Positions 5,147-35,847 of a stretch of 64,000 bases of DNA are shown here, piece after piece. Each line of letters starts with the position of its first letter. Positions within the stretch are counted from its first letter, which is position 1. The DNA comes from Sistotremastrum niveocremeum HHB9708 (lineage: Eukaryota > Basidiomycota > Agaricomycetes > Sistotremastrales > Sistotremastraceae): positions 372,001 through 436,000 of the forward strand of contig KV419410.1 in the NCBI GenBank assembly GCA_001630475.1, read 5' to 3'. Below the pieces are notes generated by a model that worked only from the letters and a program-made list of their open reading frames with translations, searched no databases and had not been told where the DNA came from. A program made the translations under genes and the position numbers.

Positions 5147-6690
5147 ATGGCCTCTCTAGCAGCTCGTACATCCTCTAAAGCTCTCAAGAACGTCTCTCGC
5201 ACCGTAGGACGCTCGACTGTCTCCCCCTTGGCTGCCTCGAGAAGCTACTCTCTCCTGGCTCGCAGCACCGTCGCTGCTAAGCCTAAAACCACTTTTGAGG
5301 TCTGTCAATGTGGATAGAGGTAGAGGATGTGACTGACGTGTTTGTTTAGAACGTTCGTGGTGTCAAGACTCTCGACTTTGCTGGATCAAAAGAAGTCGTT
5401 TACGAAAGAGCAGACTGGCCTCTGCCCAAACTTCACGAATATTTCAAGAACGACACTCTTGCTCTCATTGGCTATGGTTCTCAAGGACATGGCCAAGGTC
5501 TCAATGCTAGAGATAATGGATTGAACGTCATTGTTGGTGTCCGCAAGGACGGTGCGAGCTGGAAAGAGGCTCTTGAAGATGGCTGGGTAAGTAATTTGCT
5601 TTTACGATTTTTCGTGCGTCATTTAAACCTGCTTTTGGAACATAGGTCCCTGGAAAGACTCTCTTCCCTATTGAAGAGGCCATTGACCGTGGAACGATCA
5701 TCATGAATCTCCTTTCTGATGCTGCTCAGTCGAGCACTTGGCCCCAACTTGCACCCCTCATCACGAAGGGAAAGACTCTGTACTTCTCCCACGGTTTCTC
5801 CGTTGTCTACAAGGAGGATACCCATGTTGTCCCTCCCACCGATGTTGATGTCATCCTCGTTGCACCCAAGGGCTCTGGACGAACTGTCCGCACTCTTTTC
5901 AAGGAGGGACGTGGCATCAACTCTTCCATTGCTGTCTTCCAGGATGTGACCGGAAAGGCCAAGGAAAAGGCTATTGCCCTTGGTATTGCTGTCGGTTCCG
6001 GTTATCTGTACGAGACCACCTTCGAGAAGGAGGTCTACTCCGATCTTTACGGCGAGCGTGGTGTGGTATGTTGTAGTCGTCTTTTATTCATTGCGCGAAC
6101 TAACTTCTTTTCGTAGTTGATGGGTGGTATCCGTAAGTTTCTGGTCCTCGGTATCATGAAGGCTCTAGCATCTGATTCGTTCCTCAGAGGGAATGTTCCT
6201 TGCTCAGTACAAGGTTCTCCGCGCGAATGGCCATTCCCCGTCTGAAGCCTTCAACGAGACTGTCGAGGAAGCCACTCAATCCCTGTTCCCCTTGATTGGC
6301 CAGCACGGCATGGTATAAACAACACATCTTTCGATTATACGTTCCGATTATTAACGTTGACTGAAGGACTACATGTACGCTGCATGCTCAACCACTGCTC
6401 GTCGTGGAGCTTTGGACTGGGCTCCCATTTTCGAGGCTGCCAACAGACCCGTCTTCGAGAAGCTCTACGAGTCTGTCAAGAACGGAACTGAGACTCGCAA
6501 ATCCCTCGAATTCAATGGAAGATCGACGTACCGTGAGGATCTCGCCCGTGAACTGAAGGAGATCGACGAGCAGGAGATCTGGAGAGCCGGTACGTTTCAT
6601 TGCCCACCGCCGAATTCTATTTGGTCCTGACCACTATTTTGTTTTCTAGGCAAGACCGTGCGTTCTCTGCGCCCGGATTACAAGCAGTAG
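5147..6690 (+). CDS. ILV5: Ketol-acid reductoisomerase, mitochondrial
   Basis: Second enzyme of valine, leucine and isoleucine synthesis: NADPH- and Mg-dependent isomerisation and reduction of acetolactate in the mitochondrial matrix. The N-terminus ([15 protein letters not shown], then Arg/Ser-rich) is a typical presequence. The NADPH-binding Rossmann loop reads [19 protein letters not shown], followed by [14 protein letters not shown]-like sequence, [11 protein letters not shown] and [11 protein letters not shown]. The knotted C-terminal domain supplies the metal ligands in the YSDLYGERG and [15 protein letters not shown] regions and the final [19 protein letters not shown]. There are about six exons, with small introns near 5300-5350, 5587-5645, 6065-6118, 6133-6187, 6313-6366 and 6590-6650. 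The stop at 6688-6690 follows RPDYKQ. The gene appears complete and shows no oddity. Confidence 0.95.
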
Positions 6691-6878
6691 ACTTCAGGAG
6701 AAGTGGAACTGCGCTCGAAGTGATGTATGTGGTTAAAAGTACGCCTCTTGTAGGAATTATCTACATTCGATGTACACCCTTTTTGGCATCTATTTTCATT
6801 CTATCATCCGGAGAGATGTTTGGAGATTTTGTAGTAATATTAGTATCAGGGAGCATTGCTTATATAAGCATCGAAGTC

Positions 6879-7768
6879 ATGTCTCCGGTCAACGTTCTCG
6901 TTTCCACATTTCAACCATTCCCAACTGTCTCGCTCAGTCTCTCGGAAGATACAGAGCTCAACGAGATCCCCGAGCTGATATGTGCTCGATACCCGCAATT
7001 GAACTGGAATGACCTGTTCCTGAGCTCGCTCTCCGGGAGGCCGCTCCCACCTACGACTCCTCTGTCATCTCTTGCCGAAGAGAACTCCTTTGTCTCTCTT
7101 CGGATTAGCCCTCGATTGTATGGCGGAAAGGGCGGTTTTGGATCGCAGTTGCGAGCTGCTGGCGGCCGCATGAGTAGCCAGAAGACGAGCAACAATGATT
7201 CTTGTCGGGATCTAAGTGGCAGACGGCTGAGCACCGTGAAAGAGGCCAAGAAGTGAGCATCGTGTCTCATGCTATCCATGCCATTGTATACTGATTTTGT
7301 TCTTGAAGGCTTGCTGAGTACATCGAGAGCGAGCCTGAGCGGAAGAAAGCTGCAGCTGAAGCTCAGAAGGAGAAACTCGAGAAACTGGAAAGGAAGCTTG
7401 GTATCGATCCTGCCACCGGGGAGCCCATAACTGGTGTCAAGAGACGTTTGGACGACACGGAGTACCTCGAACAGAGTAAAGAGATTGTGGATAGTGTACG
7501 GAACGCCGTTACTGCAGGTATGTTTGACAGCGCTCTTCATTTAGTCTTTTCCTCCAATCCTAATCTATCGCATTGCCTAGGTCTACTCAAGAAGAAGAAA
7601 AAGGCTAAGCTGGAACAGCCAGAGAAAGCGAAGACTGTCGAGAGCGCTCCAGCTTCAACAACCGTCGAAGCCGAGCCCTCGACCGTCGCCGAAAAGATTG
7701 TCGAATCGGCGGCAACTGCACCTGCCGTGGCTGTAGCCTCTGTCGCTGTGGCTGCTGTTAGCGGCTAA
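6879..7768 (+). CDS. SDE2: Sde2-family protein (ubiquitin-fold precursor, splicing/genome stability)
   Basis: Sde2 proteins are made as precursors whose ubiquitin-like N-terminus is cut off after Gly-Gly; the C-terminal part starting with Lys joins the spliceosome in fission yeast and acts in genome stability. Here the UBL part runs from [11 protein letters not shown] to about residue 85 and ends in [14 protein letters not shown], the diagnostic GG-KGG cleavage site. The middle holds [20 protein letters not shown] and a charged coiled region, and the tail is Ala/Val/Glu rich. Introns lie at about 7254-7310 and 7519-7580. The start at 6879 is chosen because the UBL begins there; the open frame extends upstream from 6600 only by chance. 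The gene sits 188 bp after ILV5 and 160 bp before the fusion gene, all on the same strand. Confidence 0.88.
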
Positions 7769-7902
7769 CTGTACTATCTATGTATCAATCATGTGTACGA
7801 GTAGTTTTGAAGGCGCTTTGGATTTCATATTTGTGAAACGGGTTTCTTCGTCCGAAGCGAATTCTCACGGTGCTCACGCCATCTCTTTGGCTTGTGCATT
7901 TC

Positions 7903-7909
7903 TATATAA
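7903..7909 (+). promoter_or_regulatory. TATA box candidate of the fusion gene
   Basis: TATATAA lies 19-37 bp upstream of three ATGs (7912 out of frame, 7928 and 7940 in frame). If transcription starts about 30 bp downstream of the box, the first usable start is 7940, which sits in a strong ACCATGG context. Confidence 0.4.
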
Positions 7910-7927
7910 CAATGGGGAACTCCTCCT

Positions 7928-10900
7928 ATGACTCTCACCATGGCCGATCACAACTTACCAACTCCAGAGCCCGACTCGCCCGCTCTTAAAAATCTTAACC
8001 TCAAAAGAAACTATCACTTCTCTACTCAATGCGTTACCATCGATAGCCCAGACGCCGGCCACAAAGATCAGCACGGCGCATCGTCTGTGCCGATTTACCA
8101 ATCTGCTACCTTCAAAGGCGTTGGTGGTGAATATGACTACTCGAGATCTGGAAACCCTACCAGGACACACCTGGAGCATCATCTGGCAAAGATTTCTGGT
8201 GCTCGACATGCCTTCGCTGTGTCCTCAGGCATGGCGGCGCTCGACGTAATTACGAGGATGCTAAAGCCTGGTGACGAAGTGGTCGCAGGAGACGACTTGT
8301 ACGGCGGAACCAACCGACTATTGACCTATTTGAAGGTCCATGGAGGTGTCAAAGTCCACCACGTCGATACTACAGATCCTACCACTTTGTTACCTCTGCT
8401 CGGACCCGGCACCGCCATGGTGTTACTCGAAAGTCCGACCAACCCTCTGCTCAAAATAGCCGACCTTCAGAAAATAGCAGCAGATGTCAAGGAACGTGCA
8501 CCCCAGGCTGTCATTGTGGTTGACAATACCATGATGAGCCCTTACTTGCAGAGGCCCCTCGAGCATGGCGCAGACATCGTTTATGACAGCGCTACGAAAT
8601 ATCTTAGCGGCCATCACGACCTCATGGCAGGTGTCATTGTGTGCAACAAGGATGATCTTGCCAAGGTATGTATTGCAGTCGATGCCTATCTCGCGTAACT
8701 AATCCCAAATGTAGCAAATGGCATTCGTTATTAACGCCTCTGGGAATGCTCTTACTCCCTTCGACTCCTTCCTGCTGCTGCGGGGCACAAAAACATTAGC
8801 CATCCGCATGGATCGCCAACAATCAACCGCTATGTCTGTAGCGTCGTATTTGGACCAGCTTGGCTTCAAGGTCAACTATCCGGGCTTGGCGAATCACCCA
8901 GGCCGTGAGATTCACGAGCGTATCGCCAATGGCCCTGGCGCGGTTCTCAGTTTCACGACTGGCGATACCGCCTTGAGCGAAAGGATCGTGGGAGCCACTC
9001 GTCTATGGGGCATCAGCGTGTCTTTTGGAGCCGTGAACTCTCTCATCAGCATGCCCTGCGTCATGAGCCATGCATCTATTGACCCGAAGGTCCGAAAGGA
9101 ACGGGGCCTGCCTGAAGATCTAATTAGGCTTTGTGTGGGTATCGAAGATCCAGCCGATCTTCTTGCGGATCTCGAGACTGCCCTCCTCGAGGCTGGAGCT
9201 ATCAAGGAAGAAGATGTTACGAACGGAATTGGAATCAGCAGAATTCTTCCGGGCGGAGCGAGGGACACGGTCGTCAGCCGTGCCGTCGAGAAGCTCAAGT
9301 TCGAAAGCAATAGCGACAGTCTGGGCCTCGAAAGGGACCAACGGAGAAAAGAACTCTTGGTCAGCGCTCCAGGAAAAGTCATCCTGTTCGGTGAACACGC
9401 CGTTGTACATGGTGTCGTAAGCAATTTCGTTATACATTTACTATTCTTGACTCAATCGGTATCCAGACTGCCATAGCAGCCGCCGTGGATCTTCGTTGTT
9501 ATGGGCACACGACACCTCTTCCTGCGGGTCAACTGAGACTCACATTCCCGTTCGACGAGCTCGATCACTTTGACCAAACTTGGGTTATTGACAAGGATCT
9601 GCCTTGGGACGCCGTGCCCACAAGCGTTCCCACCCCCGATGTGTTAGATGCAAAATTATTGGGGGCCATCCAACAATCGTTGCTTCATCATGACCAGAAT
9701 GAGACACCTGCACGAGCCCGAGCAGTCTCCGCAGCTCAAGTTTTCTTGTACATCTATATGATCTTGGCCAGCCCTGAAAATCGGTATGTCACTCTATCCG
9801 AAAATCAAGGTCACCGTGCTAATGCCGTCCCATAGCCCCTCACTTCACTTGACAGTTCGATCGACTTTACCACTGGGAGCTGGTCTTGGCTCATCCGCCT
9901 CTTATTCTACTTGCGTCGCATCTTCTTTACTCCTCAAAACCGGCCACATCTCAGTGTCCACACTCTCTCATTCAATTTCTTCCGAAGATGCGGAGGAAGT
10001 AAATCGCTGGGCATTCACGGGCGAAAAAATCCTCCATGGTAATCCAAGCGGCGTCGACAATTCGGTTGCCGTATTTGGTGGTGCACTAGCATTCACCAGA
10101 TCTGGATTCGGTCGTCAGGGAGGCATGGAAAAAATCCAAGGGTACGTTTCATTCTGATAGAAACTGTCGGCAAAGATTAACGTCTTCGATCAGGTTCCAG
10201 TCTGTCCGGTTCCTTCTTACCGACTCAAGGGTCTCGAGGAATACAAAGAAGTTGGTAGAGGGCGTAGCGCTTAAAAAGGCCCAGGTACTTGGTTCAGCCA
10301 CCTCAATTATTGAGTGGCATTCTGAATTAATTCTCTCAGGAACCTGAGCTCGTTGACGGGGTTCTGCGGTCTATTCAGGAGATCAGCGACAGAGCAAAAG
10401 CATCCCTTGCTGATCCGGCTCTGTCTCGTGCTGGCCTATTTACTGAGCTTGAGGTATGCTCGTGCACTCCTCGTATTTACTTCACTCCTGACAACGTCAC
10501 TTTTCTACAGCATCTCATTGAAAAGAACCACGACCATTTGGTCGTTCTCGGTGTCTCACATCCCGTCCTGGAGGATATTCGAGCGAAGACTCGGGAACCT
10601 CACGGATTGCGAACTAAACTTACTGGAGCAGGAGGTGGCGGTTGCGCTGTTACCTTGGTCCCCGATGGTAAATACAACATATTCGACTGCAGCGAGTTTT
10701 TCTCTAATCGTTCTCCTCAGCATTCCAAGAATCCGCTTTACAGGATGTACAAAAGTCCTTGATCGAAGCCGGTTATAAGCCTTACACTACCTCGGTTGGA
10801 GGAACTGGACTTGGTGTTCTCTGGCCCACAGAATCTGAAGCCGCCGGACCAGATTCTCCCATCGCCACTCCGCCTCAAACACCTCACTCTGAGCAGCTCC

Positions 10901-10998
10901 CGGCCGCCGGAATCGACTTAAAAACTGTTCTTGCGACGGGTTCGGATGAAGACTTGGCAGACAGAATCAGTAGGGCGGGGAAATGGATTTTTGTTTAG
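7928..10998 (+). CDS. Cystathionine beta-lyase - mevalonate kinase fusion
   Basis: Eight exons (7928-8665, 8715-9416, 9467-9783, 9836-10141, 10194-10284, 10340-10453, 10511-10667, 10721-10998) join without a stop into 900 codons. Residues 1 to about 440 are a full PLP-dependent cystathionine beta-lyase, cleaving cystathionine to homocysteine: YDYSRSGNPTRTHLE, SSGMAALDV, and SATKYLSGHHDLMAG with the PLP lysine. From about residue 459 comes a full mevalonate kinase of the GHMP family: APGKVILFGEHAVVHG, PLGAGLGSSAS, GNPSGVDN and KLTGAGGGGCAV. The junction lies inside exon 2, and no Met occurs between the lyase end and the kinase ATP loop, so the kinase has no start of its own. The linker is about 20-40 polar residues. 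The strong Kozak ATG at 7940 is an alternative start. A terpene synthase gene follows, convergent. Confidence 0.92.
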
Positions 10999-11352
10999 AG
11001 TAGTTGTTCTCAGTGTCGCTCGTCTTGAAATGTTACATGCAATCCCTTGCTTTGATGTCTTTGAAAACCCGGCTATCATCAAAAGAATCAACAAGTTATT
11101 ATTAGAAAAGGACAAACTAGCTAATGATTAGGCCGAAAGCAGAACTATAAGAAAAAGTACTAGAGCTATTGGGCTATATAAACGCCCTAAGACACCGAGG
11201 TGCTACAAGAACACATTAGGCATGTACTACTAGTATGTAGTGCGTATGAACAGAGACTATAAACAGTGATAGCAAAGAAGCGAAAGCGAGAAAAGCGAGG
11301 ACAGAGCAAATAATAAGAAAAGGAAGGGAACCTGATAGATAGTGTCTACGAG
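10999..11352. other. Intergenic between convergent fusion gene and terpene synthase
   Basis: AT-rich sequence between two converging stop codons, presumably both 3' UTRs. I see no ORF or repeat of note. Confidence 0.5.
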
Positions 11353-12515
11353 TTAGACTCGTCGAGGAAGCAGGGCGACAGATCTGTGCTCCCTTATCTC
11401 GGGGCCACGTGTGCCGAAGTATCTCTCACTTTCGAAGCTCCATTCCACGTTGGCGGTAACCCAGTTGCCGACACCCCAAATGTAATCTTTTAATTCCGAG
11501 TCAATTTTCGGTGACCAAGAGGGTAAATCATGAAACCCGGCTAAGAAGGTGTCCCGCAGTCCGTAATAGCGTCGGCCGACGTAATCCATAGCCTCCTGAA
11601 CGTCGAGGTTCTGCTCTTGCATAGCGACGGCGACGAGATTATGGGCGTCGTCTCCTCGAGACTGCTCGACATTATAGGAATATATGTCCTGAAGAAATAT
11701 TAGATGTAAGCAAACGAAGGATAAGGAATGAACATACGTTGGCCAAGATGATCATGTCAGTGGCGAGCTCGACCAGCGCGAGAACCTTGGGATGGTAGAC
11801 CACGTGATCAGGAAGGTCTTTGTCCATCTGAAGGATGTCGAAGGAGGGGAGGACTCCAATGGTGTGGCGACGCAAGATGAGGTAGTCTTCGATGCTACGG
11901 ATGTGGTTCGAGTCGCGATCGGCTGCTTGTTGGACAACGGAGTCAACGTAATTTTGGAAGTGATCGACGAAGCGGTGGGCGGCGGAGCGAGAGGAAGAGA
12001 GGAGGGCCCTGGACCAGAAACTGACAACCGGATAATAGATGAGGAAAGGTCTGAGACAATCTCGGAAGGTCAGGGCTCACCTTTGATACACTTCTCCGAG
12101 TACACTATCGCCCTCAGGTCGTGGGTCATATGGGTTGCTGCTCACATAGTAAGCGAGGAAATGGCGAGAAAGACCGTATTACATACTGGATTGCGTCCAT
12201 GATGATATCGGCTCCCTTTTGCACATCGGATGCGCATTGTTCGTCACTAATATCGTCGAACACGAAGAAAGCATTCATGAGGTCGCAGCCGGTGCGCAGA
12301 ATTTCTGGGCTGGCATTGGGGTAGGCGAGTGATGCGATGAGACCGAATTTGCACTTTCTGAAGATAGCGAGATATTTAGCGTCGAATGGGTCGAAGGTTT
12401 CGACCCAGTCTGCGCTCTCGGTGGCGACCTCTTCATAGTGAGGATTGATGGTGCGCTGCATGGGCCAGCCTGCGAGGAGATCAGGGAGTTGGACGGTGGT
12501 GGTGGTGGTGGACAT
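11353..12515 (-). CDS. Sesquiterpene synthase (class I terpene cyclase)
   Basis: Cyclises farnesyl diphosphate. Four exons (12515-12187, 12137-12081, 12020-11738, 11688-11353) give exactly 335 codons including the stop, the usual size for fungal sesquiterpene synthases. The first metal site is FFVFDDISDE, an Asp-rich DDxxD-type motif. The second is NDIYSYNVE, a perfect NDxxSxxxE (NSE) motif formed across the last intron. The C-terminal stretch ERYFGTRG followed by LLP and the N-terminal INPHYEEV look like the basidiomycete clade that includes protoilludene synthases; that clade placement is an inference from memory and the product is unknown. Its neighbour supplies mevalonate kinase, and a P450 and a reductase-like gene lie 4-8 kb away. 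The 5' leader contains a 14-bp tandem repeat. Confidence 0.92.
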
Positions 12516-12536
12516 AGCGAGAGAGGGTTGTGGAAT

Positions 12537-12572
12537 GTGGTGGGTGGTGAGTGGTGGGTGGTGAGTGGTGAG
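12537..12572. repeat. Tandem 14-mer repeat in terpene synthase 5' leader
   Basis: The unit GTGGTGGGTGGTGA is present twice head to tail (12537-12550 and 12551-12564) and then partly a third time. On the coding strand of the terpene synthase this is a CACC/CTC-rich pyrimidine tract just upstream of the ATG at 12515. Confidence 0.8.
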
Positions 12573-14499
12573 GAACGACCTCTCGTGGTCCGCCTTTTAA
12601 AGACGGGACGCTTCGATTGACAGGGATAAATGAGCAAATAACCTTGAAAATGAGCCTCGTTCCATTCGGCTTAGCCGGGTGCCAAAATTTTACGTTCTGT
12701 CGAGGGTGACGACCGCCTCGGCGTAAGCTTCATGGCCTCCCATTGGGTTCGCAGATCCTAAACAGGAACAGGCGTATAGGAACGCAAGTAATTCCAGCGA
12801 GCGCCCAGGAAGCGAGCATGAGGCTCCGTTCTGAGCTAGATCTCGGGAGTGGACGGCAATTGAATAAAAGATCGTAACAGACGAAGGGAGGGCGCAGTGG
12901 CGGAATATTTAGAGCTCTGACAGAAAGTTCCTAGAGAAGGGCAAGCGCTCCGGGCAGAATATCCAGGGCACGTGTCGGATCCGGAAATTGAGACTTAAAC
13001 CCACGCGTTTCTGCTACGCGCTGAAATTTTCTCGCTGACGCCTACAAAAGTAAAAGACGTTCCGAGAAGCTTTTGAGCATGGAAACGGCTAGGTTTCGGT
13101 CGGCATCCCGCGGATGGGAAAGGAAAGCCGAAGGCTCGGATATAATTCATCTGGTGATTATTGAGTCATTCGTTGACTTTACGTAGAGAACGTATGAGTA
13201 GTGTCTGCCCATTGCACCCACATGGGCTAGCATGTTGGAATCAAAGGACGAATTGATTAGTCCATGAATTCTCGAGCTTTTGGAAATGAAGTACGATACC
13301 TGTAGCAAAACCTGACCGAGCTACCCAGCGCGCCTCGGACAAAGCTCTTCTGCGTCACCACCGAATCCTGTGCGATTACAAGGCTTGCTTGAGATCTAAA
13401 ACAGGATTGACAGGCCGCTGGCACCGACTGGGGCCTGAAACTCTGCAGGAGATCTGGGCTCAGATCTCCCGACTGACATCCGGCGAAAAAGACGGGTGGG
13501 CTTGAATGACGCAGCTTCCCAGAATGGCATATCTTATCAAGGAAGGAGGTAACCCAAAATTTTGACCACAGTTTTATCCGAGGATGTTTGCGCAGCTGGG
13601 CATCATGCGTGCCGGATATCGCACATCTGCATATTGAATGTGGTCCTCCGCCGTGATGCCCAGGTCGACCTGAGATGCCAGGTGTGCTGTTCAACTCAGG
13701 GTCGCAAAGTAAATCTGAAAAGTTGCGACCCTTGACACGAGGAAAACTGGTCGATTGCACACCCTAAATCAACGCATGGCAGGAGTCGGCCTGATGAAAA
13801 TGAGATGGTGCAAAATCTTGATCGATAAGCGCGGATCCCCGGTGTTTCCTGATAAGGTTGAGCCAGGAAACAGACTTTAGGAGACTGTAAGACGTGAATC
13901 GCTAGAGCCGTGATCGTCGTCACACCTGATGGGGAAATTGACCACGAAGACGACGTTGGAGGCAATTGTGCTACTGCCGTTGTTTCCGGAAGGAGCTCAT
14001 AAGCCGTCCGACGGTTTGAGATATAGCAATCCACTTCCCGGACGCTTAGATCCCGATATGAAAGTGAGGTCGTCGTCTGGGTCTGCAGCGGACGCAGATC
14101 CGGCTCCAACGCGGCTCGCCAATGATGTGCCGCCGATCATGCATGCTGCATTTTGAGGACAAGACCCATTTCCAAGAAAAAGGGTAGCTTCGCACAGAGA
14201 TTTTCATCTCATCGTACGATTTATGAGGGCATGCGATGGGTGCACTGGCTGCCAACCTCTCCAAATTAGGTGGATGACCTGCAACCTAGAATAATAGCCA
14301 AGGGATAATCACTAGACTCGTTGAACATAGCAAATGGATGTTCATCCAAAAATAGCGTATGATACAACACAAGTGATCCTAGGTCTCAGCAGCGAGCGCT
14401 ATCCACAGTGTCTTGTAATCCCAGACGACGTCAGAGCGAATCAGCGCACAGCGCTCAACGAGCGTGGTGGTGACGAGTAGCATGCCAGCTGGTCACGTG
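12573..14499. other. Gene-poor 1.9 kb between terpene synthase and ThuA gene
   Basis: No family could be recognised on either strand. Open frames exist on the minus strand at 13257-13760 and 13696-14109, but their translations lack domain-like features or a supported exon chain. I saw no terminal inverted repeats, target duplication or tandem array. It may be the upstream regulatory region of the two divergent genes, or decayed sequence. Confidence 0.4.
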
Positions 14500-26078: not shown

Positions 26079-29000
26079 ATGTCAATAACAGTGCTGACGG
26101 CTACAGGCACGCCTGCGAAACTGAAAGTGCACGGAAGCAACTTGAAAGTGAAGCCATATATCACTCTGCAGGTGGACAACCTGGGTAGTGGCTATCCCAC
26201 ACAGGTATCCAAGAGCAACCCAGATCCCGTATGGAATGAGCCAATCCCATTGGCCGCCGAACTAGACAGCATCATTCAAATCACGATGCTGCACAAAAGG
26301 AGTTGGCCACGATCAGACATCCCTTTGGCCGGGTGTAGACATACGCTCAAAGAAATGTTGAGCATGAAAGGTCAATCCGCAGGTGTGCCTGGTTTGCGAT
26401 GGTTTCCTGAGTCTTCACTTAAGTCTGTAGAGATTGCTCTTAGCTTGTCGCCTCTTGTGGACGAACTAAGGAATGTCAAGATTGTGCTCAGCCTGTCTAT
26501 TTCATCACCATCAGAATCTTCTTCTCCTGTCACCGAGAATGGAGAAACTTCCCTCCAGTCGAGCCTGTACCAGGCCCTTGGACCCGTGAAGCCTCACATA
26601 CCGCTCCCCAACATCAATGCCAACTTGCCAAACGTTGAAGTCAGCAGTGACTCTTGGTGTACGATCATCGACGCGCTCGGAAAGCTCGGTAATGTCATGA
26701 AGTTAATGGACGCAGTTGCGCAAGTATGTTGTTCGTGCGCGGTCGTACTCCGTCTGTCTGATGATGCTTTCAAGATTCATCCCTATGTCAGCCTCGCCTG
26801 GAGCTTCCTTTCTGCCGCGTACCAGGAATGTGCCTTGTAAACAATCGAGCATCAAAACTGATTTAGACCAGATTGTCGGCGCTCAGCAAGAGCGGGAACA
26901 GAATATCACAAGATTAATCGACAAGATGTGCCGGCTGTATGAGTTCGTCTCAGACATCGATGCTCAAACGCTTGGCATCAAAGTTGGCAACATTCTAGAA
27001 GATATAGTCAAAGAAACTACCAGATGCGCCAACTTCATTTATGAATATTGTCGTCAGAAATATCTCAGTCAGTTCACGACAAATTTTTCGATGGAACGCT
27101 TGTAGCTGACAAATCTGCAGAGCGGATTGTTGCCAGCGTATTAGGGAACGTAGATGACCAAATTAACACCTTCTACGAGAACTTCGACATCCTTCAAAGA
27201 TTCCTGAACACAGGGACCGCACTAGAGAGTGTTCGTTTACTTAAAGGGATGCACGTCACGCAAGGCAAATCTTTCCATGATTGGTGCTTGTGGTAGCTAA
27301 ACCAAAACAGACTTCAACCTGCTTGGAACATACTTGAAACATGTATCCGCATCTTGGGAGTCTGGTCTGTGCTGCCTACCTGGCACACGACAAAGTCTCT
27401 TCGAAGATATCGTCAAATGGATATCGGGGGACGTCAAAAATCCTGAGGATGAACCTCGGATATTCTGGCTCACAGGCATTGCAGGAGGAGGCAAGAGTGC
27501 AATTGCTCACTCCGTAGCGAAGATTTGTTCCGGCAGCGGGATCCTTGGCTCCTGTTTCTTTTTCCGTTATAACGCCCCTGAGCGACGCAGTCCCGACCAC
27601 GTATTCACAACATTTGCCACCGACTTCGCATCCTTTGATCAGGGCATTCTTGAAAAGCTCAGACAACTGATTCAAGCCAATCCTTCCGTCTCTGGTCTGG
27701 AAAGACAATTTCAGACATACATACTTGAACCACTCCGTTCAGTAAACATGCTCAGCAGAGCCGTCATCGTCGTGGACGGCCTGGATGAATGTGGGATAGC
27801 CTCCGAACGACAGGAGTTTCTACGAGTATTGACGCAGGGCTCACAGTCACTCCCGACCAACGTTAAGCTATTCTTGACCAGTCGGGGAGACGACGACATC
27901 AAAGAGGCTTTTGATCTATTACCCTCTCAGGCTTATGCTCGTCGAGATCTCAATCTGAGTTCAACAGAGAATACCGATGATATAACTCGATACATTTTCT
28001 CCGAATGCTCGCGCATAGCGGTGAAGAAAAAAGGGCGGCCGAATATCGATGATGACTGGCCGGGACCGCATCGGAGACGTTTGTTTCTAGAACGGACGGC
28101 AGGGCTGTTCATTTGGGCCTCGACAGCGTTCAGGATGCTGGAATTGGCAAGAAACCCAGATCTAGAATTGATCGACTTGTTAAAAGCCACTCCAACAGGG
28201 TCTGGGGCTCAGGATTCTCTTGATGCCCTGTACAAGCGCGCCATCGACGCGATTGGTCATTGGAATGAGAGTGGCTTCGGCGAGGCTTTCCGCACGTCCA
28301 TGGGTGCAGTCATCGTTGCTATGCGCCCTCTCACTTTAAAGTCGATCGATCGGTTGGTCGGAGATGAAATACAGAATGATCGTGCCGGTCAGATACTTAT
28401 AACCCTTGGGAGTGTCCTCACGGGTGTCGATTCACCAGAGGAACCTGTGAAAGTTCTCCATCCCTCATTCTCTGAGTTCATCACCGACAGCTCGCGTTGT
28501 TCAGATCCCATGAAAAGGATTGACCGCAAAGTTCATGATCGCAAGATGTCAGTGCGATGCTTGCGAGCTCTCTGTTCAGCAGACGTTCTGCGGCGAAATA
28601 TTTGCGACCTGCCCGATGCCTCTATACCGAATAGCAAAATAGAAGATCTACAGAAGCGGCTTGTAGAGCGGCTTGGAGAAGAGATCCGATATTCTTGTCT
28701 ATATTGGGTCTCACATGTCCTGCGATGCAATGCCATGGATATCGAGCTCGAAGAGTTGATTTTCGAATTCCTGTCCGACCATGCGATCCACTGGCTTGAA
28801 GTTATGAGTCTGCACTCCGAGGCACCGAGCCTCGTCCCCTCGTTGACATCTCTACGCGCACTCCTTCTGGTAAGTCTATTTCACGCACATTTAGGTCTGC
28901 CAAAACATGTCACTCATTGAGCTCACGTACAGCAAAGTTCTCCCCAGGGTTCTGATCTGGATATTTTCTTGAGAGATCTCATTATGTTCTGCGTGAAGTT

Positions 29001-30972
29001 CTCTACGGTAATCGAAGCCAATGCTCTGCAGATATATCGTTCCGCTTTGCCGTTCGTACCCTTAAAGTCCCCCCTGGCCGCATTCCAGGATATTTATCAC
29101 GACATACCAACATGCCGTATTGGTCTTCCTCAAGCATGGATGCCATCCTGGAGTCCGCCGTCTGTCCACGAACAAGTGTATACAATGGCGTTCTCCCAGG
29201 ACGGCACCCGCCTAGGCTGGCTCAACTTAGACGGTAGAGCCCTTTCTATCGTGGACACAACCCCGCCTCAGACTGTCTCTTGCACGCTCAAGAGTACATC
29301 ATCTCCATTCAGTGCAATGACCCTCTCTCGAGATGGCAAGGTCGTAGTGACCGGTTCCGAAAATGGGGCCATTTCTCAGTGGTCATCTAAGAATGGCGCC
29401 AGACGTTCGGATTCCCCCCAAACTCACCAGGATGAAGTGACTTGCGTGAGTTTCAGTAACTCGGGCAATACAATAGCGTCTGGTTCACGGCGGGAGCTCT
29501 TTGTATGGAAGGCCACAGGGCAACAGCTCCTCAAAAAGTACCATCCCTCTGGGAAAGTCGTCGTCGTCGCGATAAGCCCGAACGATGACCGCGTTGCGTG
29601 TGTTGCATCCGACCCTGACAACGACTTTTTGCTGTGCTATGATAATAACGAAGAGGACACGATGCATATCTTTCAACACCAATATCCTGATGATTTCGTC
29701 GAGTCCCTCAGTTGGGCTGATGACGACACCACCCTTCTCGTGGCAACCAAAGAATACCTTAGGTTGATCTCAGCGATGTCCGGTCAAGTGATGAGAGAAA
29801 TAAAATATGGCTTTACGGCCCATCTGGCCCATTTTATAGCCCAAGGTACCCAATTAATGGCTCAATGCCGTGATTGCGGAGCGTTCGTCAAGTGGGATAT
29901 CACTCCGAACTCGTCAAATACTGACCAAACGGTCTTGACGATATCAGGAACTGTTGACCCTTTGGACTTTGGGGACGCCGCAGTCGATAATTTCGCCTTC
30001 GCAGCCGGACATCTTGCCATAGTAAACCAGCACCAGATATCTTTTCACGAGTCCTTGAACTGGATTGATCAGCATAGCCATGACCTCAATGCTGACACAC
30101 GTCGCGACGCTTTGGACCGGCCTATATTCTCCCTGAATGGAGTACTCGTTGCCGTTCCTACGGCTGACGGTCTCATAATTTGGGACACTGAAACAGGCCG
30201 AGAAAAATTGCGCCTGCCGACGCATTCCGCCCCAAAGACTTGCGTCTCTTTCCAAAGTCGCAATAAATTCATAGCCTGCGGTTTCAAAGATGGCGCTCTC
30301 CAAGTCATGGGCGTTCGCAGAGATGGGGTCAATCTTGTAGCCCGCGTGGACGAGCGAGAAGTTCGAGATGTGTCTTGGCACCCAAGGGGGTCGAAACTAG
30401 CCACTTACTCGGTCGGACCAAACTCCCATTCGATTCACATTTGGGACGTCACTTCAGATTCTATAGAATCTTCAAAAATGATGTGCCACAAAACGAGACT
30501 CTCAGACAGACTGCATGTCGTCTTCTCTTCTCAAGGAGACTGTCTCGCAACAGCGTGTTCAAACCCGTCAGGTACTGAGCTTAGCGTTTGGAATATTTCA
30601 GAAGGAACCCGTGTGACGACGTTAGTCCGGGCACTTTCCAGGCCTGCCCAATTGTCATTCCTGTCGGATGAATCCGCAATCTGGGCTTTAGATGAGCAAG
30701 GCACCCAGGCACTGAGATGGGATTTTCGGGCGGGTCCAGATACTCGATGGGTCTCCGACCTGGGGCCTCGCTTTAGACTTTGGGATTCTTATAACTGGGT
30801 GACCCAAGGGGACGAAAGCAATCTGTTCAAAGTACCATTCCAATATGAACACCCTCATTCGCACTCCCACGTCATCCCCGTCAAGCCAAGCTTCGCAACC
30901 AGTGGAAAACTGGCTTACTTTAGAGCGAGTCGTCTCGTCTTAATCGATTTTCACAAGCTATTGTCTGCTTAA
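26079..30972 (+). CDS. C2-NACHT-WD40 STAND (NLR-like) protein
   Basis: A fungal signal-transducing ATPase of the kind linked to non-self recognition and cell-death control. The N-terminus begins AKLKVHGSNLKVKPYITLQV and contains NPDPVWNEPIPL, the strand pattern of a C2 domain, which may bind membrane lipids. A helical middle region (IVGAQQEREQNITRL) leads to a NACHT domain with Walker A GIAGGGKSAIAHS and Walker B AVIVVDGLDECG, and then LFLTSRGDDDI. After a helical linker, the last 600 residues form WD40-like repeats: FSQDGTRLGWL, SRDGKVVVTGSENGAISQW, VSFSNSGNTIASGSR, WHPRGSKLATYS, LSVWNISEG. Introns lie near 26725-26770, 26828-26870, 27064-27120, 27257-27308 and 28870-28933. The WD repeats are diverged, not the near-identical type. 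All ATPase motifs are intact. Confidence 0.88.
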
Positions 30973-34186: not shown

Positions 34187-35847
34187 TCAAAACTCGTCTG
34201 GTATGTCAGCGACATCATCGGTCAGCTTCACCGCCAGCGGGCTGGGTGAGCGTCGAATCCCTGACTCCAGCATGTGAACCATGCTCTCCAGATCGTTATT
34301 GGAATCATGTGAGACGGAAGTTTTGTCCTCAACCTCAATTGTGGTAGACCTTTCGGCTTCCAAGAAATCGGGGTGCACAACTTCATCGGGCTTGTTTTCA
34401 TCGGCTGAATATGCTTCTTCCGATGGCTTTATAATAGCAGACGGTTCCTCTGACCCAACGACGAAGGGATCATAGGTCGAATCAACGTGGCTTGAAACAA
34501 GCTCCTCTGCAGGGGGAGCTTCAGATACGTCCTCAGGGAAATCGGAGTCATAGCGCTCGATGTCCTCCTCGTGTTTTGGCTTCGCCTCATCCACAAGTTC
34601 TTCGTTCGATTGACCGAAAGAAACAACATCGGGTGGGAGCGTAGCGTCCCCCGCCTCCTCGTGCGGCGAAGAAACCTTTTCGGTGACTTGATCAACATCA
34701 ACCGCCGGTGAGTGTGAGGCCGACGGTTCTTCTGAAGATTTCAACTCTTCTCCATTGGCTTGACGTTCTTGACGCGCACTCTTTGCGGCCGCCAGCACTG
34801 CTCCAGGTTTTTGGGCCTGTTGCTTCGCGCGGGCTATTATTCTTGGATTCACAGTCTTCGAGGCTACGGTAGTTCCAGCATTTGATCCCGATGAAGGCGA
34901 CTTCGACAAAGAGCCGGAAGCAGCTTTAGTCTGCGCGACAGGAGCTCTCGCCTTCGAAGCAGACGCGGCGGTAGGCTTTGATAACGAAGGAGATGGCACA
35001 GACACGGAAGCCGTGCGTTTGGGAGTGGGCGTTGGCGATATGGCACGTCGGCTACGTGCTAATGAAGCAGCTGTGGGAGCATATAGGCCCGAAGAAGGAG
35101 AAGCAACAACGGCAGGTCTGACAGGCGTCGCGCTTGGCGTTTTGGGACGCGACACACCCGCCCCGGCAGAGATACGTGGCTTGGCTGTACGAGAACTAGT
35201 AGAAGTGACGGACTGTCCTGTATGCTGGGGCTTTAACGCAGCAGGGGCTGATTCGCGTGGTTTCGAGACTGATCTAGCCTTTACCGCCGGCTTGACAGGT
35301 GTAGCTTTTACGGTGCTCGATCGACCAGTCGATCTGGGAGGAGAGCCAGCCGATTTGGGAGCTGGACTCTTGCTCTTGGTCGGAATGGGTTTCGGTGGAC
35401 TGGGCTCAGGCTGGGCAGGGGACGCGACTGGTTCGGGTATAGGCTCCTGTACCTCTGTGGCAGGCTCTAGAACAGCGGGAGGTGTAATTTCTGGAGGTGA
35501 AAGTACCTCAGGGGGAGGTGGGCTAGGGGATTTCGGTAATGGAGCCTCAGTGGGTGCGGTGGGTTGTGGGTTTAGTTCTGGGGCCGGCTCAGGAACTGGA
35601 GGTTTGAACAGTTCTTTCACCCCAACCTGTGAAGAGATGCTACTCGTCTGACTAGTAGACTTTGCCAAAGACACGGTAGGAGGCAGAACAGGCACGTTTG
35701 AGCCCACGTTTGAAGTTCTCCTGTTCTGCTGCTCGAATCTGCCAATGAGATTGGCGACGCTCTGGCGCGGTCGTTCATCAGGCAACGGCCTTGTATATCA
35801 TATAAGTCCTCAATTTATTCAATCTAGATAGAGCACAGAACGTACAT
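34187..35847 (-). CDS. Disordered Pro/Ser/Ala-rich protein; start codon split by an intron
   Basis: A single large exon (35789-34187) encodes 532 residues with no stop but also no ATG before its far end (ESMVHMLESG). The frame is closed upstream by TGA. A consensus donor GTACGT at 35845 and a CAAG acceptor ending at 35790 would remove 56 nt and join AT (35847-35846) to G (35789), creating ATG in the right frame: MPLPDERPRQSVANLIGRFE, 534 aa. The first 40 residues hold a compact SVANLIGRFEQQ motif; the rest is Pro/Ser/Lys-rich in the middle (many SP and TP pairs, likely phosphorylated) and acidic at the C-terminus. I do not recognise a family. A cytoskeleton or scaffold role would be a guess. 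Its 5' end is 158 bp from the divergent hydrolase. Confidence 0.7.

Follow-up and report, generated by a model that had tools for sequence, protein, structure and literature searches.

The joining of a cystathionine beta-lyase to a mevalonate kinase (MVK) in a single fungal protein has been in print since 2012 (PMC3342255, PMC3468542). Liu et al. 2012 named the fusion metC-MVK and described it in 12 basidiomycetes, with a mean length of around 886 amino acids; those fungi had no other MVK homologue and no other protein with metC as its best hit, and Laccaria bicolor was given as an exception (PMC3342255). A second survey reported that basidiomycete STR3 orthologues carry around 450 extra C-terminal residues that resemble mevalonate kinase, with Postia placenta as the exception, and its account of the fusion states that the basidiomycetes surveyed yielded no separate mevalonate kinase (PMC3468542, 2012). 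The ascomycete proteins Str3 and Erg12 belong to the same two enzyme families, but are encoded by separate, unclustered genes (PMC3468542). Later reports include a fused unigene in Pleurocybella porrigens, presented with a citation of a Ganoderma report (PMC3720577), and GME67_g of Lignosus rhinocerotis, a single fused gene that encodes 918 amino acids and is described as the only MVK match in a genome of 34.3 Mb (PMC4129116). The meaning of the fusion was left for further study in the relevant passages of three of these papers (PMC3342255, PMC3468542, PMC3720577).

Other papers bring up mevalonate kinase, in the excerpts available, without a lyase fusion (PMC4393869, PMC9810662, PMC7396576, PMC9020118 and PMC8242266). 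The mevalonate kinases of Xanthophyllomyces and Ustilago are listed with no mention of fusion in the sections concerned (PMC4393869, PMC7396576), and the Inonotus obliquus study can be read, from the part that treats the pathway, as reporting two mevalonate kinase genes, which complicates the simple picture (PMC9020118).

Here we analysed a window—the whole stretch of 64,000 nucleotides of Sistotremastrum niveocremeum DNA presented above—and describe a metC-MVK-type fusion gene on its forward strand (7928–10998, +; contig C17), with eight exons, short introns and a spliced product of 900 amino acids plus a stop (901 codons). The original prediction of an in-frame lyase–kinase fusion holds for the join, for its layout and for the identity of each half, all of them borne out by the open frame and by family matches. 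Its further statement that no enzyme of this layout was known to have been described does not hold, given the reports from 2012 onwards (PMC3342255, PMC3468542, in the portions that describe the fusion). The lyase–kinase fusion is thus real, but already known.

As far as the published descriptions go, the resemblance is close. The order is that of metC-MVK, with the lyase N-terminal and the kinase C-terminal, and the length class is shared (mean of around 886 amino acids versus 900 here), with about half of the protein given to each enzyme (PMC3342255). In the protein described here the lyase match spans residues 32–407 and the kinase starts at about residue 460. The trait of being the only MVK homologue, noted for metC-MVK, is found here too, in an assembly of 34.7 Mb (PMC3342255). 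A conserved insertion of 16 residues in the MVK part has also been described in seven of the metC-MVK fungi (out of 12 according to the text, out of 13 according to a figure legend; PMC3342255). The STR3 orthologue survey, in the part describing the fusion, covers other species than this host and shows the same fused layout (PMC3468542); the Lignosus protein, compared by its description, is 18 residues longer than the one reported here (PMC4129116).

Gene structure and the join between the halves

Splicing was evaluated by combining every GT..AG intron of 40–90 bases in seven junction regions, which gave 3264 combinations. Only 24 of these leave the frame open between 7928 and the stop codon (10998), with products of 890–900 amino acids (in an earlier, hand-picked subset, 8 of 256 were open). 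Each of the 24 open models retains the PLP motif of the lyase as well as the later motifs of the kinase; eight of them interrupt the ATP loop of the kinase. A single open model yields 900 amino acids, and it is the one originally put forward, with exon 2 at 8715–9416; the predicted eight exons, with phases that give 901 codons, stand as the sole solution of that length. We prefer this model because the spacing of its ATP loop matches that of the best solved mevalonate kinase, 1kvk, without a gap. All seven of its donors start with GTA, and its acceptors all end in TAG or CAG. No N bases occur in 7500–13000. The first ATG is at 7928, and position 7940 holds a second one in the same frame (context, CACCATGGC); the actual length of the protein may thus be 896 amino acids.

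In the preferred model, exon 1 (7928–8665, +) encodes the N terminus and the PLP-binding part of the cystathionine beta-lyase. Exon 2 (8715–9416, +) carries, in one open frame, the remainder of the beta-lyase, the linker and the ATP loop of the mevalonate kinase. A linker of 56 residues (404–459; 9186–9353, +) separates the lyase domain, as delimited by Pfam, from the kinase, and the ATP loop, APGKVILFGEHAVVHG, occupies residues 464–479 (9366–9413, +). The mevalonate kinase continues, on the same strand, through exon 3 (9467–9783, +), exon 4 (9836–10141, +), which holds the GLGSSA and GEKILHGNPSGVDNS motifs, exon 5 (10194–10284, +), exon 6 (10340–10453, +) and exon 7 (10511–10667, +), which holds the KLTGAGGGGCAVTL motif. 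Exon 8 (10721–10998, +) encodes the C terminus of the kinase, a tail and the stop; the tail extends around 56–58 residues past the portion that can be aligned to solved mevalonate kinases.

The join itself therefore lies inside exon 2, in an uninterrupted open frame with no N bases. Residue 363 is the final Met of the lyase half, and none follows until residue 578, past the ATP loop; in the spliced frame there is no in-frame ATG between 9063 and 9758. The original prediction that no Met lies between the halves is confirmed by this gap. Given the position of the ATP loop at residues 464–479, no AUG in the interval could start a whole kinase. A separate kinase started at an AUG was accordingly ruled out, as a start at residue 578 would lose the loop.

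Two separate proteins could in principle still be made, with the full transcript yielding the lyase and an internal transcript, a near-cognate start or cleavage of the linker yielding the kinase; we consider this improbable. Near-cognate codons do occur in frame after Met 363 and before the ATP loop (for example, CTG at 9108, CTG at 9321 and TTG at 9357), and residues 404–458 yield no Pfam match at E 0.001, as expected of a spacer. Against this stand the absence of any Met between residues 363 and 578, with the loss of the ATP loop (464–479) that a start at 578 would entail, and the result of a search of 7500–11000 for one TATA pattern, a weak test, in which the sole match lies upstream at 7903. 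The unigene from Pleurocybella, as described, is also fused (PMC3720577). The single fused polypeptide remains by far the better reading.

Codon usage, scored after training on the remainder of the same gene, ranks the frame of the fusion above both other forward frames in all five stretches between 9099 and 9416. In four of the five, one reverse frame scores slightly above it, which is presumably a mirror effect rather than the sign of a gene. By itself, codon usage would leave the coding strand at the join undecided; it is decided by the family matches on either side.

Family identity of the halves and other copies in the genome

The N-terminal half belongs to the cystathionine beta-lyase family. 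The spliced protein scores 537.6 bits against the cystathionine beta-lyase equivalog model TIGR01329 (cut-off, 487.5 bits; residues 32–407) and, among the best 25 of the 52 models matched, the other 24 fall under their own cut-offs. Positions 12–380 of the 381 in PF01053 are aligned at residues 46–403. The best solved relative is the cystathionine beta-lyase 1ibj (E 3.8e-110; query 17–402), which we take to be an Arabidopsis protein. The lysine of the SATKY motif, to which we assign its usual role, is kept at residue 224.

The C-terminal half belongs to the mevalonate kinase family. Once spliced, it scores 220.3 bits against the mevalonate kinase equivalog model TIGR00549 (cut-off, 163.05 bits), and Pfam places a GHMP N domain at residues 585–668 and a GHMP C domain at 749–814. 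Mevalonate kinase 1kvk, presumably the rat protein, is the best solved relative (E 6.7e-64; positions 1–383 of the 441-residue half), and 2r3v, another mevalonate kinase, is also among the best. The counterparts of K13, S146, E193 and D204 of 1kvk, to which we assign their usual roles by assumption, are kept as K467, S606, E649 and D660. With nearly all of PF01053 aligned (12–380 of 381) and both GHMP domains present, the two halves are near full length, as had been proposed.

We searched the genome assembly (34.7 Mb, 111 contigs) exon by exon, so the scores of individual exons, including those of the fusion gene, all fall short of the TIGR01329 and TIGR00549 cut-offs. Used as a query, the kinase half matches only the fusion locus at E ≤ 1e-3 across the 34.7 Mb, so that no second mevalonate kinase was detected at this threshold. 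One further match, on contig C27 (E 0.34; 61 residues aligned at 26% identity; three stops), looks like chance. The GHMP_kinases_N domain is found at five places, which correspond to the fusion gene, a homoserine kinase, a galactokinase, a diphosphomevalonate decarboxylase and a phosphomevalonate kinase. The homoserine kinase and the diphosphomevalonate decarboxylase exceed their model cut-offs; the galactokinase and the phosphomevalonate kinase are named by the best model on one exon and score below the full-length cut-offs. TIGR00549, taken to E values of up to 1, returns the same five places, the fusion gene and the other four. The check for stand-alone copies that accompanied the original prediction thus leaves the fusion, in this genome, as the only mevalonate kinase found.

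Nor was a better beta-lyase found elsewhere in the assembly among the classified places of the Cys/Met family. Four of these were scored on one exon each: the place on C67 fits best to cystathionine gamma-synthase/gamma-lyase models, that on C9 fits best to O-acetylhomoserine sulfhydrylase, and those at C3:645934 and on C35 fit weakly to gamma-synthase. In all four, on that single exon, TIGR01329 scores below the best model. Two more Cys/Met-family places, on C60 and at C3:119094, are absent from the TIGR01329 matches at E 0.001.

These results also bear on whether one half has become inactive and now merely scaffolds or regulates the other, which we regard as highly improbable. Within the literature searched, outside which most subscription journals lie, the accessible texts yielded no enzyme assay of the fused protein or of either half, as such a role would allow. 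However, the catalytic motifs are kept in both halves, both halves pass their equivalog cut-offs, and the genome search found no other mevalonate kinase gene. A chimera of two genes created during assembly, conceivable where a single assembly is used, is so very unlikely as to be negligible, given that the junction falls within one uninterrupted open exon without N bases, that the genome search turned up neither a second kinase copy nor a lyase match of equal quality, and that several groups have published, in the descriptions available, a matching order and length class from other species (PMC3342255, PMC3468542, PMC3720577, PMC4129116).

Proposed function

On the strength of its sequence, the gene very probably encodes the basidiomycete metC-MVK (Str3–Erg12) fusion, most likely a bifunctional enzyme in which each active site acts on its own. 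The N-terminal half would be a PLP-dependent cystathionine beta-lyase supplying homocysteine for methionine synthesis, and the C-terminal half, a mevalonate kinase of GHMP type, would phosphorylate mevalonate on the way to isoprenoids and sterols. The two active sites are most likely to be independent because, judging from the pathways, neither produces the substrate of the other; we would accordingly expect no channelling between them. One transcript would yield both enzymes at 1:1, a ratio predicted to be fixed because they share a single polypeptide. This gene is probably indispensable for making sterols, since the genome search uncovered no second mevalonate kinase.

Sterol synthesis uses S-adenosylmethionine for C-24 methylation. 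A possible benefit of the fusion may be joint control of the supply of methionine and S-adenosylmethionine and of sterol synthesis. It is a rather unlikely proposal that selection keeps the fusion, that it is no frozen accident, and that it couples homocysteine and methionine supply (and so S-adenosylmethionine supply) to the flux into isoprenoids and sterols, perhaps with cross-talk between the domains. If both activities were confirmed on one protein, the mevalonate pathway and methionine synthesis would be tied to one gene, unlike in ascomycetes, with a bearing on terpenoid engineering in mushrooms. The fusion matters for annotation as well, because a pipeline may name the gene after one half only.

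A fusion of a sesquiterpene synthase to an HMG-CoA synthase is reportedly found in Stereum hirsutum. It is likewise fungal and involves an enzyme of the mevalonate pathway, but the partners differ.

Neighbouring genes

Of the open frames in the window, 30 were selected and scanned for protein families. Just downstream of the fusion, and tail-to-tail with it, lies a terpene synthase gene (Terpene_syn_C_2; 11353–12596, −), with 354 bases from stop to stop. It contains DDISD and, by eye, an NDIYSYNVE-type motif across a GT..AG gap, both of which we take to be metal-binding motifs of terpene synthases. In the genome as a whole, PF19086 has 30 matches, at around 19 gene-sized places by eye, on contigs C18, C50, C41, C4, C70 and C17; many of them lie close together on C18 and C50.

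Directly upstream of the fusion and co-directional with it is a gene for the splicing regulator SDE2 (6552–7765, +), with GGKGG after its ubiquitin-like part. Ketol-acid reductoisomerase frames (KARI_N; 5350–6113, +) lie upstream of SDE2, and a glycosyltransferase-like frame is also found upstream of the fusion. Membership of the fusion in a terpene cluster was considered and rejected: we do not read it as a cluster gene, in view of these upstream genes and of the 30 terpene synthase matches genome-wide.

Elsewhere in the window, an open frame of 536 amino acids (34190–35797, −) has no Pfam match at E 0.001. DUF6533, a family that we presume to be typical of mushrooms, has 40 matches in the genome; together with the 30 terpene synthase matches, this agrees with a basidiomycete host but is no proof of one. 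At 27301–30969 (+), a frame of NACHT/NPHP3-N type (539 amino acids) is followed by one TGA and then, in frame, by a WD40-repeat frame (683 amino acids); the break could be an intron, a boundary between two genes or the mark of a broken STAND-type gene.
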